Positions 38,997 through 43,204 of a stretch of 64,000 nt of DNA are shown one piece after another. A model generated the notes under the pieces. It ran no database searches. It was not told the DNA's origin and saw only the letters and a list, made by a program, of their open reading frames with translations. Numbering within the stretch: the stretch's first letter is position 1; each line of letters begins with the position of its first letter. Source of the DNA: Streptomyces sp. NBC_01231 (lineage in GTDB: Bacteria; Actinomycetota; Actinomycetes; Streptomycetales; Streptomycetaceae); contig CP108521.1 of the NCBI GenBank assembly GCA_035999765.1, forward strand, positions 5,208,001 to 5,272,000, read 5' to 3'. The position numbers were made by a program, and so were the translations under genes.

Positions 38997-39761
38997 ATGA
39001 ACGTGGCAGCGACCACCGACGACACCGAGCACGATGAGCACACCGGCGCGGACGCGCCCGCGCCTCCCGAGGCGCGTCGCCGCCCCGGCCGTATCGCCAT
39101 GGCGGTCAGTGTCTTCGGCGAGCTCCTGATCACGGCCGGCCTGGTCCTCGGCCTGTTCGTCGTCTACTCCCTGTGGTGGACCAACGTCGTCGCCGACCGC
39201 AAGGCGGACCGCCAGGGCGACAAGGTCCGTGACAACTGGGCGGCCCAGAAGGACACCGGGCCCGGTGCGCTGAACACCAAGGAGGGCATCGGCTTCCTCC
39301 ACGTGCCCGCGATGAAGAACGGCGAGGTCCTGGTCGAGAAGGGCACCTCGGCGAAGATCCTGAACGACGGTGTCGCCGGCTACTACACCGACCCGGTCAA
39401 GTCAGCGCTCCCGACCACAGGCAAGAACGGCAACTTCTCGCTCGCCGCCCACCGCGACGGCCACGGCGCGAAGTTCCACAACATCGACAAGGTGAAGAAG
39501 GGCGACCCGATCGTCTTCGAGACGAAGACGAAGTGGTACGTCTACAAGGTCTTCGCGGTCCTTCCCGAGACCTCGAAGTACAACGTCAAGGTCCTGTCGA
39601 AGATCCCCAAGGAGTCCGGCAAGAAGAAGGCGGGCCACTACATCACCCTGACCACGTGCACGCCGGTGTTCACCTCCCGGTACCGGTACGTGGTGTGGGG
39701 CGAACTGGAGCGGGTGGACAAGGTGGACAGCGAGCGGACGCCGCCGAAGGAACTGGAGTGA
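38997..39761 (+). CDS. Class E sortase (third of three)
   Basis: 254 residues. A charged N-terminus, a membrane helix (VSVFGELLITAGLVLGLFVVYSLWW) and a sortase domain with His152 (AAHRDG), Cys221 (TLTTC) and Arg230 (RYRYVVWG). It starts six bases after the previous sortase gene, at ATG 38997. A strong terminator follows. The shared FGEL/GEVF-ITxG helix and WWTNV motif show it is a paralogue of the second sortase. Confidence 0.93.
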   Translation: MNVAATTDDTEHDEHTGADAPAPPEARRRPGRIAMAVSVFGELLITAGLVLGLFVVYSLWWTNVVADRKADRQGDKVRDNWAAQKDTGPGALNTKEGIGFLHVPAMKNGEVLVEKGTSAKILNDGVAGYYTDPVKSALPTTGKNGNFSLAAHRDGHGAKFHNIDKVKKGDPIVFETKTKWYVYKVFAVLPETSKYNVKVLSKIPKESGKKKAGHYITLTTCTPVFTSRYRYVVWGELERVDKVDSERTPPKELE

Positions 39762-39798: not shown

Positions 39799-39839
39799 AA
39801 GGCCCGAAGCCGCAACTATCTCTTGCGGCTTCGGGCCTT
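39799..39839. terminator. Terminator between sortase cluster and nuclease gene
   Basis: Perfect 17-bp stem (39799-39815 with 39823-39839) and a 7-base loop, 37 bases after the third sortase. It can serve both convergent genes. Confidence 0.92.
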
Positions 39840-39850
39840 GCTGTCTTTGC

Positions 39851-40891
39851 CTAGCGGAGTGCCTTGAGACGCACTCCGGCGCTCCACTCCTCCAGCTCGT
39901 CGCGGTTCACCGTGATGACTCCGGTCAGGTCTGCGATGACTTGTGCTTCGCTGCTGAAGGTGCTGGTGGCGACGAACAGGGCGATGTCCATACGGCCGAT
40001 GGCTCGCGCGGCCCCGGCGAACTTCTGCATGTCGGCGCTCGGAACGGACCAGCGGCCGGCCCGGTTCTTGCACTGGACGGCGATGGTTCGTCCGTCGGTC
40101 GTGCGTGCGGTGATGTCGATGCCCCGGTCGGTGCGGGCCTGCGGTACGACGACCTCCGTACAACCGTCCCGGCGCAGCAGATCAGCGACGTGCTGCTCGA
40201 ACGCCTTCCACGTCATGGCCTTGGTGGAGGCCCTGATCTGGTCCGTCGGTGCTTCTCCTTCCAGGCTGCTGATCCGCCGGTGGTGCCAACAGAGTTTGCG
40301 TTCGACGTTCTCGATGTCCTGGCGGAGCTCGATGAGTTCGCGGCGGTGTTCGCCTGACGTTTCGATCATGGCGTTGAACATGGGGACGATGGTCTCGCCG
40401 AGGATGTGGGTGATGCGCTGGTCGATGCGGTCGTCGAGGGAGACGGTTTCCATTGGGACGGGGTTTTCCACAGGCTGTGTGCGCGCCAGGTACTCCATGT
40501 CAAGGAGGTACCGGCGTACCTGACGGGCGACTTCGCTGTCGCGGAGGAGCATGGCGATGTTGAGGACAGCACGCCGGGAGTAGATGGTGAGACTCCGGCG
40601 GGCTTGTGGACAACTGCCCAGCGAGAGTGACACGTTGTCACTCTCGAATTTTCGCAGGTCAGCGCCTCGAAGAACAGTCATGCCGTTGACGTCCAGCTCT
40701 TCGCGGTGGCGTTTTGCGAGCTGCCGGACGACTTCGATGGTGACGTCGAAGTACGCCGCCACCATCGCCGTAGTCACATGCATCCCGTCCGGCAGCAGCG
40801 ACAGCGCCTTGACTCTGTCGAGGACGTCTGTGCGCTCCAGCACGCTGCCGCGCAGACTCTTCGATTCCAGCAGCGCCGATTCGTTGATCAT
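39851..40891 (-). CDS. Antirepressor-like DNA-binding domain fused to Mrr-type restriction endonuclease domain
   Basis: 346 residues from ATG 40891 with GGAAGGGCAG upstream. The N-terminal part (about 35-130: VAAYFDVTIEVVRQLAKRH, MTVLRGADLRKF, LTIYSRRAVLNIAMLLRDSEVARQVRRYLLD) resembles phage antirepressor/ORF6N-Bro type DNA-binding domains. A helical middle contains a likely coiled coil (RRELIELRQDIENVERKL). The C-terminal part is an Mrr-like nuclease: AFEQHVADLLRRDG, Asp259 in DRGIDI, Gln273-Cys-Lys275 in VQCKN, that is D...QxK. It is a probable DNA-cleaving or DNA-modification-sensing protein. It stands alone between sortase and pknB genes that are normally adjacent in Streptomyces as I remember them, and no methyltransferase is nearby. 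Confidence 0.75.
   Translation of the reverse strand: MINESALLESKSLRGSVLERTDVLDRVKALSLLPDGMHVTTAMVAAYFDVTIEVVRQLAKRHREELDVNGMTVLRGADLRKFESDNVSLSLGSCPQARRSLTIYSRRAVLNIAMLLRDSEVARQVRRYLLDMEYLARTQPVENPVPMETVSLDDRIDQRITHILGETIVPMFNAMIETSGEHRRELIELRQDIENVERKLCWHHRRISSLEGEAPTDQIRASTKAMTWKAFEQHVADLLRRDGCTEVVVPQARTDRGIDITARTTDGRTIAVQCKNRAGRWSVPSADMQKFAGAARAIGRMDIALFVATSTFSSEAQVIADLTGVITVNRDELEEWSAGVRLKALR
40606..40614 (-). other. Perfect DnaA box inside the nuclease gene
   Basis: TGTGGACAA, the reverse complement of TTGTCCACA. A related TTTTCCACA lies at 40464-40472 in the same gene. It may be chance. Confidence 0.4.
40622..40646. repeat. Perfect inverted repeat inside the nuclease gene
   Basis: 11-bp arms (40622-40632 with 40636-40646) separated by CGT, in the coding region for the N-terminal DNA-binding domain (residues near ESDNVSLSL). 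Confidence 0.85.
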
Positions 40892-41206
40892 GTTCTGCCC
40901 TTCCGCTCGTGGCGTGGCCGTGCGGCCAGGGCAGAGCTCCGACACCCCACCCCATCCGATCAACGAGTCGTCACATATGAAGACACGATCGATACGCGTA
41001 CACCTATACGGCGGAGTGAGTGAGACGTTCCGGCGAAGGTCGGCGGTGCTCCAGTTGCCTCCGTAGACGTAGACGTTCTGGGGGTGGGGGGCTGGGGGTC
41101 CCGGGGCCCGGCCCACCGGGCCGTGGACGCGTCAGAGCCCCGGCACTCTGATCCGAGTGACGGGGCTCTGACGTACGGGAGGGCTGTCAGTCCTCCCTGT
41201 GGGCCG
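40892..41206 (-). promoter_or_regulatory. Control region of the nuclease gene and end of the pknB operon
   Basis: 315 bases between pknB and the nuclease gene, both on the minus strand. The left part is less GC-rich (around 40965-41020, with GATCGATACGCGT and CACATATG) and is the likely promoter for the nuclease gene. The right part holds the pknB terminator. Confidence 0.45.
41130..41173 (-). terminator. pknB operon terminator
   Basis: Perfect 13-bp outer stem (41130-41142 with 41161-41173) plus an inner 5-bp stem CACTC/GAGTG, 34 bases after the pknB stop. Confidence 0.85.
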
Positions 41207-43204
41207 CTATCCGGTGCCGCCGCCGAAGAATCCGCCGCCGTTCCCGTTGCCGTTTCCGTCGCCGCCGACGGTCGTCAGCGTGACCGTGGTGCCGGCCGGG
41301 TCGCCGTCGATCTCGGAGTTGCCCTGCGGATCCTGCTGGCTCACGAACGCGGTGTCGCTCTGGTTGCTTCCGTCGGCGAACTGGATGTTGGTGAAGCCGG
41401 CCGCCTGCAGGGTCTGTTTGGCCTGCCCGACCGTCTGGCCGACGACGCTCGGGACTGGTGTCTTCTTCGGAGCCGCCTTGCCGACCTTCATCTCCACCGT
41501 GGAGTTCTTGTCGGCCTGCGAGCCCGCCGACGGCGTGGTCTCGATGACCTTGCCGACCTGGTTCTGGTCCTGGGTCTCCACGTCGGTGCAGTTGCCGACC
41601 AGGTTGTTCGCGGTCATCTGAGCCTTGGCGGCGTCACAGGACTGGCCCAGGACGTCCGGGACCGTGGCCTTCTCCTCGGCCTTGGCGATGGTGAGGGTGA
41701 CCGTGGTGCCCTTCTCCACCTCGTCGCCGAGATCCGGGTCCTGGTCCGTGACCTTGCCCGGCTCCTCCGTGGACACCTCTTCCTTCGTCTTGACCTCGAA
41801 GTCGTACTTGTCGTCCTCGAGGATCGACGTCGCCTCGTCGACGGTCTTGCCGAGGACACTCGGGACCGCGACCTTCGGCGCCCCGGTGGAGATCACCAGG
41901 TTGACGACTGTCTGCTTCTTGACATCGGACTTGCCCTTGGGATCTTGGTCGCAGACCGTGCCCTTGGTCTGGTTCTCGCAGGGCTTCTGCGTGACCGTCC
42001 CGACCTTCAGGTCGCTGTTGGTCAATTGCGATCTCGCGTCGGCTTCCTTCAGGCTGATGAGGTTGGGCACAGCCACGGTGTCATTGGCCACCCCACCACT
42101 CGCGAAGATCCACTTCCCGATCAGGATCGCGCCGACGAGGACGAGAACCCCCGCCACCACCAGCAGAATCGTCGACGTGTTCGACTTGTTCTGGCGGCGC
42201 CGGTCGGGGCGGTCGTCGTAGCCGAAGCCGCCGTCGTCCGGAGACATCGGGGGGAGCATGGTCGTCGCCCCGCCGCCCGCGTCGGCGCGCAGGGCGGTCG
42301 TCGGCTGGTCGTCCGGGTAGCCGCCGTAGCCCACGGAGCCCATCGCGGCGGTGGCCGCGACCGGCTGGCCGTCGAGGCAGGCCTCGATGTCGACGCGCAT
42401 CTCGTCGGCCGACTGGTAGCGATAGTTCGGGTCCTTGACCAGCGCCTTCAGGACGATGGCGTCCATCTCGGGCGTGAGCTCGGGATCGAACACGGACGGG
42501 GCCTGGGGCTCTTCCCGGACGTGCTGGTACGCGACCGCCACCGGGGAGTCGCCCACGAAGGGCGGTCGGACCGTCAGGAGCTCGTAGAGCAGACAGCCCG
42601 TGGAGTAGAGGTCGGACCGCGCGTCGACCTGCTCGCCCTTGGCCTGCTCCGGGGAGAGGTACTGGGCGGTGCCGATGACCGCGGATGTCTGCGTCATCGT
42701 CATGCCGGAGTCGCCCATGGCGCGGGCGATGCCGAAGTCCATCACCTTGACCTGGCCGTTGCGCGTCAGCATGACGTTGGCCGGTTTGATGTCGCGGTGG
42801 ACGATGCCGGCCCGGTGTGAGTACTCCAGGGCCTGGAGAATGCCGATGGTCATCTCCAGCGTGCGCTCCGGCAGCAGCTTGCGGCCGCTGTGGAGTAGCT
42901 CACGCAGGGTGGAGCCGTCGACGTACTCCATGACGATGTACGGGATCGAGACCCCGTCGATGTAGTCCTCGCCCGTGTCGTAGACCGCGACGATCGCGGG
43001 ATGGTTGAGCGAGGCGGCCGACTGGGCCTCCCGGCGGAACCGGGCCTGGAAAGACGGGTCGCGTGCGAGGTCCGCACGCAGCGTCTTCACCGCCACGGTG
43101 CGGCCGAGGCGCGTGTCCATGGCGAGGTATACCTCCGCCATGCCACCACGACCGAGCACCTGGCCCAGCTCGTACCGGCCGCCGAGGCGACGCGGCTCTT
43201 CCAT
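41207..43204 (-). CDS. pknB: PASTA-domain serine/threonine protein kinase PknB
   Basis: 665 residues. The kinase domain (about 10-275) has GRGGMAEVY, Lys40, HRDIKPAN with Asp138, DFGIA at 156-160 and a Thr-rich activation loop. A juxtamembrane linker and membrane helix (TSTILLVVAGVLVLVGAILIGKWIF) lead to four extracellular PASTA repeats (VPNLISLKEADARSQL, VPSVLGKTVDEATSIL, VPDVLGQSCDAAKAQM, VPSVVGQTVGQAKQTL) that sense muropeptides or lipid II. The C-terminus is Gly/Asn-rich. It phosphorylates growth and division proteins; its phosphatase and FHA partners are in the same operon. Called PkaF in S. coelicolor. Confidence 0.96.
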   Translation of the reverse strand: MEEPRRLGGRYELGQVLGRGGMAEVYLAMDTRLGRTVAVKTLRADLARDPSFQARFRREAQSAASLNHPAIVAVYDTGEDYIDGVSIPYIVMEYVDGSTLRELLHSGRKLLPERTLEMTIGILQALEYSHRAGIVHRDIKPANVMLTRNGQVKVMDFGIARAMGDSGMTMTQTSAVIGTAQYLSPEQAKGEQVDARSDLYSTGCLLYELLTVRPPFVGDSPVAVAYQHVREEPQAPSVFDPELTPEMDAIVLKALVKDPNYRYQSADEMRVDIEACLDGQPVAATAAMGSVGYGGYPDDQPTTALRADAGGGATTMLPPMSPDDGGFGYDDRPDRRRQNKSNTSTILLVVAGVLVLVGAILIGKWIFASGGVANDTVAVPNLISLKEADARSQLTNSDLKVGTVTQKPCENQTKGTVCDQDPKGKSDVKKQTVVNLVISTGAPKVAVPSVLGKTVDEATSILEDDKYDFEVKTKEEVSTEEPGKVTDQDPDLGDEVEKGTTVTLTIAKAEEKATVPDVLGQSCDAAKAQMTANNLVGNCTDVETQDQNQVGKVIETTPSAGSQADKNSTVEMKVGKAAPKKTPVPSVVGQTVGQAKQTLQAAGFTNIQFADGSNQSDTAFVSQQDPQGNSEIDGDPAGTTVTLTTVGGDGNGNGNGGGFFGGGTG

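Follow-up and report, generated by a model that had tools for sequence, protein, structure and literature searches.

The window, i.e. the whole stretch of 64,000 nucleotides that was analyzed, contains between a sortase gene and a pknB-type kinase gene a stand-alone open reading frame that joins a winged-helix domain to an Mrr nuclease domain (hereafter, the Mrr-fusion gene). The genes and features of this locus are as follows.

38997..39761, plus strand: sortase gene (Sortase domain), a fixed neighbor, convergent with the Mrr-fusion gene
39799..39839, no strand: terminator-like inverted repeat (17/17 paired) between the Mrr-fusion gene and the convergent sortase gene
39851..40891, minus strand: Mrr-fusion gene, 346 amino acids plus stop (ATG at 40891, stop at 39851-39853)
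39854..40249, minus strand: Mrr nuclease domain, residues 215-346 (Pfam and fold match)
39854..40333, minus strand: exchanged nuclease cassette, residues 187-346, left edge approximate
40067..40117, minus strand: catalytic D259 to Q273-C-K275
40262..40438, minus strand: predicted long helix (coiled coil), residues 152-210 (structure model)
40472..40891, minus strand: winged-helix domain of phage antirepressor type, residues 1-140 (phage tblastn matches, alignment, domain model)
40583..40753, minus strand: exchanged recognition cassette, residues 47-103 (predicted recognition helix 52-61, wing 72-75)
40950..40990, minus strand: conserved 41-base upstream element of the Mrr-fusion gene
41130..41173, no strand: terminator-like inverted repeat (91% paired) between pknB and the Mrr-fusion gene
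41207..43204, minus strand: pknB-type kinase-PASTA gene, a fixed neighbor, followed by the Mrr-fusion gene

The initial annotation had placed a stand-alone gene in a core locus between these two neighbors, with terminators on both sides, and the neighboring open reading frames agree with this placement; the two inverted repeats could act as terminators. As had also been stated, no methyltransferase or partner gene was found among the open reading frames between the two neighbors in the window, and the orthologues have the same neighbors. The site lies between housekeeping genes and is not a defence island; the gene is likewise not located in a phage immunity region.

The proposed fusion of an antirepressor-like domain, a coiled coil and an Mrr nuclease was confirmed by phage tblastn matches, the structure model and Pfam. 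Pfam Mrr_cat matched residues 224-336 (E = 5.5e-21, exceeding the curated cut-off), the fold of the nuclease domain matched MspJI and AspBHI in a structure comparison, and the helix at residues 152-210 was present in the predicted structure model. The catalytic residues named in the initial annotation, D259, Q273 and K275, are conserved in 72, 70 and 71 of 72 orthologue sequences, respectively. The whole-protein model was weak in the N-terminal domain, and this domain was accordingly modelled separately. The label ORF6N/Bro-type, which had been given to this domain, held only in part: residues 1-140 are homologous to phage antirepressors, whereas neither ORF6N (PF10543) nor Bro-N was listed by Pfam for the window protein. 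ORF6N appeared in relatives only, below the Pfam cut-off (best 6.9e-05, 23.5 bits versus 27.8 required), and Bro-N was not listed for the relatives examined with Pfam either. The KilAC/ANT C-terminal domain was also absent from the window protein according to Pfam. Two PADLOC candidates, PDC-M59A (residues 26-132, 5.4e-11) and PDC-S02 (residues 216-333, 2.6e-10), gave partial matches to one half of the fusion each, and neither model describes the fusion. In 5.39 million open papers, we found nothing on an antirepressor combined with Mrr in Streptomyces or on PADLOC PDC-M59, and no description of an antirepressor-Mrr fusion among the matches listed, a scope outside which most subscription papers lie.

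Phage relatives of the N-terminal domain

The relation of residues 1-140 to antirepressors, on which the initial annotation depended, was found in a tblastn search of phage records, 67 of 50,697 of which matched (best match: E 4e-33, residues 2-150 at 50% identity); among the 30 phage matches listed, out of these 67, many are annotated as 'antirepressor'. By homology to these records, together with the alignment, the N-terminal DNA-binding domain is of the phage antirepressor type. The phage homologues adjoin repressor genes, and three of five phage relatives examined contain the KilAC/ANT C-terminal domain. A full-length phage or plasmid version of the fusion was rejected for the collections searched, as a query coverage of at least 80% was reached in 0 of 67 phage and 0 of 141 plasmid records; 15 viral contigs of the first scan matched the nuclease only.

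We also compared the recognition segments of the family with those of viruses in 6120 family-virus pairs (72 by 85). The mean identity was 34% in the recognition segment, 50% in residues 1-46 and 65% in residues 104-133, and the identity of the segment exceeded that of both flanks in 51 of the 6120 pairs. The top pairs, which are the extremes of a ranked list, involved L304, L307 and L235 and showed 63-65% identity in the recognition segment, compared with flank identities of 39-54% and 33-67%. Of these three, L307 is a KilAC antirepressor (ANT 1.6e-13), and L304 and L235 had no Pfam match. These comparisons suggest that recognition cassettes and viral antirepressors are likely to draw on a common pool.

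In the cited parts of their descriptions, E. coli Mrr (with a winged helix) and the MspJI family also have a DNA-binding domain before an Mrr-type PD-(D/E/Q)xK nuclease (PMC3874153, PMC12707154), in one gene and with no methyltransferase. The window protein differs from them in a winged helix of phage antirepressor type, not of the Mrr N-terminal family, in the long coiled coil between the domains and in the separate exchange of its cassettes. It is possible, although we regard it as unlikely, that the protein is a modification-dependent (Type IV, Mrr- or MspJI-like) enzyme, in which the winged helix would read a foreign base modification and cassette exchange would follow which modifications are foreign. 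This explanation would account for the absence of a protecting methyltransferase, and is consistent with the domain order of E. coli Mrr, with the nuclease shared by MspJI-type enzymes and with the fold match reported above. However, Pfam did not list the Mrr N-terminal family for the window protein at E up to 1, a remote relation being possible, and the N-terminal domain groups with phage antirepressors, for which we found no report of the reading of modified bases.

Distribution and decay of the fusion

Of 150 sampled genomes of the genus, 22 had the full-length gene at the pknB-sortase site (L001-L022, including that of the window); a sortase gene was seen in all 22 and pknB in 20 of the 22 within a 1.5 kb flank. 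The gap between the two neighbors was inspected in 106 of the 150 genomes, of which 26 were brought in by the gene and 80 by the sortase. The gene or a remnant occupied 29 of these 106 gaps, seven of them in a decayed form (L023, L024, L025, L027, L039, L067 and L068), while 73 had both neighbors and no trace of it and 4 were not judgeable. The empty gaps were short (at most 350 bases in 62 of the 73; median of the 73, 184). The presence/absence comparison proposed in the initial annotation thus leads us to reject a universal Streptomyces gene, and the gene is best read as having long occupied the pknB-sortase gap in some members of the genus. Larger gaps devoid of the gene contained other inserts, such as a TetR/FAD-enzyme pair (L034) and a transposase-like rve gene (L106); small inserts of these kinds or encoding secreted-looking proteins were seen in L034, L035, L036, L045, L048, L064, L088 and L106. 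Since the gaps of other genomes hold other small inserts, the gap may be a small insertion spot.

At other sites in the 150 genomes, the fusion was found at full length in L026, L028 and L119, as residues 15-346 in L118 and in a frame-broken form in L121. The full-length copy L026:1501-2505 has R-x-E in place of Q-x-K in an open frame, a replacement that points to a nuclease retained in frame but inactive. A scan of species genomes, in which the E-values refer to candidate stretches only, yielded 428 relatives; the best 80 of the 428 were all from Streptomyces, each covering at least residues 1-313, and 78 of these best 80 had a sortase of the right kind downstream. Outside the genus, among the matches listed in 293 genomes of the order, three genomes matched (E up to 1e-25), over residues 3-198 at most. 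The full fusion did not turn up outside Streptomyces in any of the samples searched.

Decay at the pknB-sortase site has occurred repeatedly and in different ways: a frameshift interrupts L023, the catalytic Q-x-K strand is missing from L024, and L025 and L027 end after the coiled coil, the N-terminal domain still being readable in all four. This pattern fits a costly, conditionally useful nuclease, and would also fit an independent role of the N-terminal domain. Decayed second copies were observed between pknB and the intact gene in L010 (L010:1015-1414), L141, L165, L187 and L201, and may have been left by tandem insertions in which one allele replaced another. Relatives that have this N-terminal domain but no nuclease are common at other sites; for example, one adjoins the seryl-tRNA synthetase gene in L123 (L123:6299-7072), where the domain is followed by a coiled coil, and similar loci in L124, L125 and L129 place this arrangement in one part of the genus. 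In six nuclease-free sequences, the recognition segment was the most variable part of the domain (0.61 versus 0.78 and 0.85).

Separate exchange of recognition and nuclease cassettes

When the first 22 orthologues were compared, the differences between related copies were confined to one sharply bounded stretch. For example, when L003 and L007 were compared in DNA windows, the flanks were 77-100% identical (57% in the window at codon 145), compared with 17-57% for windows starting at codons 49-97. According to the model of the N-terminal domain, the exchanged segment starts at the predicted recognition helix (52-61) and stops before the conserved second half of the domain.

We computed segment statistics for 72 sequences, i.e. 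71 of 80 named orthologues and the window; the other nine of the 80 (L141, L157, L164, L172, L176, L187, L197, L201 and L210) were left out for length, and the pknB statistics used 66 of the 72 sequences. The mean pairwise identity was 0.85 for residues 1-46, 0.53 for 47-103, 0.87 for 104-135, 0.76 for 136-186 and 0.62 for 215-346. The identities of the recognition segment and the nuclease were uncorrelated (rank correlation 0.01, P = 0.19 in 299 permutations), and clustering into eight recognition types and five nuclease types revealed 21 combinations. L161 and L147 are each 98% identical to L200 in the recognition segment and 48-53% identical in the nuclease; for L213 and L214, from Streptomyces sp. 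ISL-96 and ISL-100, conversely, the nuclease is 98% identical and the recognition segment 51%, with both neighbors 95% identical. In 31 pairs (30 taxa) whose neighbors are at least 90% identical, identity fell below 65% in the recognition segment of 12 and the nuclease of five, and in none for residues 1-46, 104-135 or 136-186.

The backbone (residues 1-46 and 104-186) tracks the neighboring genes, whereas the variation of residues 47-103 (recognition helix and wing) is unrelated to that of the nuclease, and both are nearly decoupled from the neighbors. Correlations with pknB were 0.47 for residues 1-40, 0.34-0.41 for windows within 97-181 and 0.14 for windows within 46-106, and those with the sortase were 0.13 for the recognition segment and 0.11 for the nuclease; the species pairs underlying these values are mutually non-independent. 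As a control, 57-column windows taken where pknB evolves fast (mean identity 0.44-0.62) gave correlations of 0.33-0.47 with the sortase. Fast windows of pknB thus track the sortase where the cassettes barely do, and fast evolution alone does not explain the cassette pattern. An observation against the exchange reading is that low correlations, down to 0.14, are also given by very slow pknB windows. The signal of ancestry in the cassettes is weak yet significant (correlations of 0.10-0.15 with the neighbors, P = 0.003-0.02), and each cassette correlates with the backbone next to it (0.29 for the recognition segment and 104-135; 0.17 for the nuclease and 136-186), indicating that exchange is frequent but not free. 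These results show that the recognition and nuclease cassettes have been exchanged separately between species, which is the most telling feature of the family and lies beyond what a single sequence can reveal.

Drift in place is less favored as the cause of this variability. Among 27 pairs that have similar nucleases but dissimilar recognition segments, synonymous divergence was 0.62 in the segment, compared with 0.22-0.34 elsewhere in the gene, and the variants would accordingly seem to be old alleles more than products of drift. Pairs with like segments had a segment pN/pS of 0.16-0.19, which, since these pairs were picked for high identity, is of supporting value only.

The exchange also bears on a selfish or homing-type nuclease, which would spread by cutting empty sites or rival alleles. 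The fixed insertion point, the patchy presence, the decayed copies and the decayed second copies upstream in L010, L141, L165, L187 and L201 are what such an element might leave behind. However, fusions occur at other sites too, exchange takes place inside the gene, and the backbone follows the neighboring genes (0.47 with pknB for residues 1-40), which indicates that the gene as a whole is not a quick spreader. We consider this explanation very unlikely.

In 65 of the 72 sequences, the start is preceded at a distance of 62-112 bases by a 41-base element (at least 28 of 41 bases matching; shuffled maximum, 23). It accompanies seven of the eight recognition types (8/8, 2/2, 30/32, 3/4, 1/1, 11/13 and 10/11 sequences; type 8, 0/1), with deviations in places in the small types 2, 4 and 8. 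It was also found just upstream of two of four fusions at other sites (L111 and L119) and near none of 10 nuclease-free relatives. Upstream similarity correlated with pknB at 0.34 and with the recognition segment at 0.13. An operator in the gene's own promoter that changes with the cassette is less favored, as the element is common to nearly every recognition type; for the same reason, it is unlikely that the gene's own promoter is what the cassette reads, and the upstream pattern appears to speak against a simple autoregulator.

The protein might instead be a domesticated phage regulator, whose N-terminal domain would control host or prophage genes and whose nuclease would be secondary or recently lost in many lineages. 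The loss of the nuclease with an intact N-terminal domain in L024, L025 and L027, the common nuclease-free relatives and the repressor genes next to the phage homologues are in line with such a role. A phage-derived regulator is nevertheless less favored, and rather improbable in our view, because the conserved upstream element occurs with nearly every recognition type, notwithstanding the deviations in some; moreover, 70-72 of 72 orthologues retain the catalytic residues.

A candidate one-gene defence nuclease

We consider the best explanation, with a probability of about 0.5, to be a stand-alone defence nuclease encoded by one gene, which would act in the manner of Odn or Mrr and whose specificity would be exchangeable. 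In this mechanism, the antirepressor-type winged helix would bind particular DNA via residues 47-103, the coiled coil would join subunits and the Mrr domain would cut DNA. Recombination, presumably aided by the near-invariant flanking stretches, would swap the recognition and nuclease cassettes separately, so that the same backbone would be directed at different DNA in different species, the putative target being invading DNA. This reading is supported by the Mrr domain with its conserved D and Q-x-K and its match to the MspJI and AspBHI fold, the antirepressor homology of the N-terminal domain, the independent variation of recognition segment and nuclease on a backbone that follows the neighbors, the start of the exchanged segment at the predicted recognition helix, the greater likeness of some cassettes than of their flanks to viral antirepressors, the patchy presence, the frequent decay and the lack of a modification partner. 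On the other hand, the gene is flanked by housekeeping genes and the cassettes retain some signal of ancestry; the N-terminal domain may have a role of its own, because nuclease-free relatives with the same domain are common; furthermore, cutting by sequence alone would require a host without the site, and no protection mechanism was seen at the locus. The interpretation of the initial annotation is thus partly supported, and we infer for the window gene the one-gene defence role that it had proposed.

Some known systems resemble parts of this arrangement, as far as the cited portions of their descriptions extend. Odn, the origin-directed nuclease of phage ICP1, is phage-borne and combines a T5orf172 nuclease with a RepA_N-like domain, and its DNA-binding domain resembles that of its victim's own protein (PMC8263062). 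The window nuclease is similarly fused with a DNA-binding domain that has homologues in genetic parasites; unlike Odn, it is chromosomal and of the Mrr type, and the likeness is one of domains. The Bro network (ANT/KilAC, ORF6N, KilA-N) mixes DNA-binding modules with nucleases (PMC10111431), and the N-terminal domain of the window protein is homologous to phage antirepressors and members of this network; in contrast to phage antirepressors, the window protein has no KilAC domain and has a fixed chromosomal site and an Mrr nuclease. BstA is a prophage-borne defence protein with a KilA-N domain and a self-immunity element, for which no nuclease partner was seen in the part cited (PMC8585504). 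The window protein would likewise be a defence protein with a domain of the KilA-N class, but is chromosomal and fused to a nuclease. In Type I restriction, target-recognition domains of HsdS are shuffled (PMC7394358, PMC7557576), and in both cases a recognition segment is exchanged at a fixed locus; the window segment differs in lying within the nuclease polypeptide, with no methyltransferase, and the likeness is one of sequence exchange, the change in specificity being putative. Separate exchange of recognition and nuclease cassettes within one chromosomal gene appears in none of the cited portions of the Mrr, Odn and Bro-network accounts.

Because some cassettes resemble those of viral antirepressors, we tentatively propose, by analogy with Odn, that the targets might be operator-like sites of temperate phages, although we hold this to be improbable. 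Equally speculative is the more complete picture of a fixed-site, one-gene innate immune nuclease, whose recognition cassettes of ~57 residues would come from the antirepressor pool of temperate phages and be aimed at the operators those phages need, the cutter being changed by nuclease exchange.

If the defence reading is true, natural recombination has built a library of fusions between a winged helix and a nuclease, in which the backbone is shared and the specificity can be swapped, and this library adjoins a housekeeping operon, a place outside the scope of searches for defence islands. The existence of natural pairs whose main difference is the recognition cassette makes it testable whether the cassette sets the target, and which DNA the antirepressor-type domain reads.
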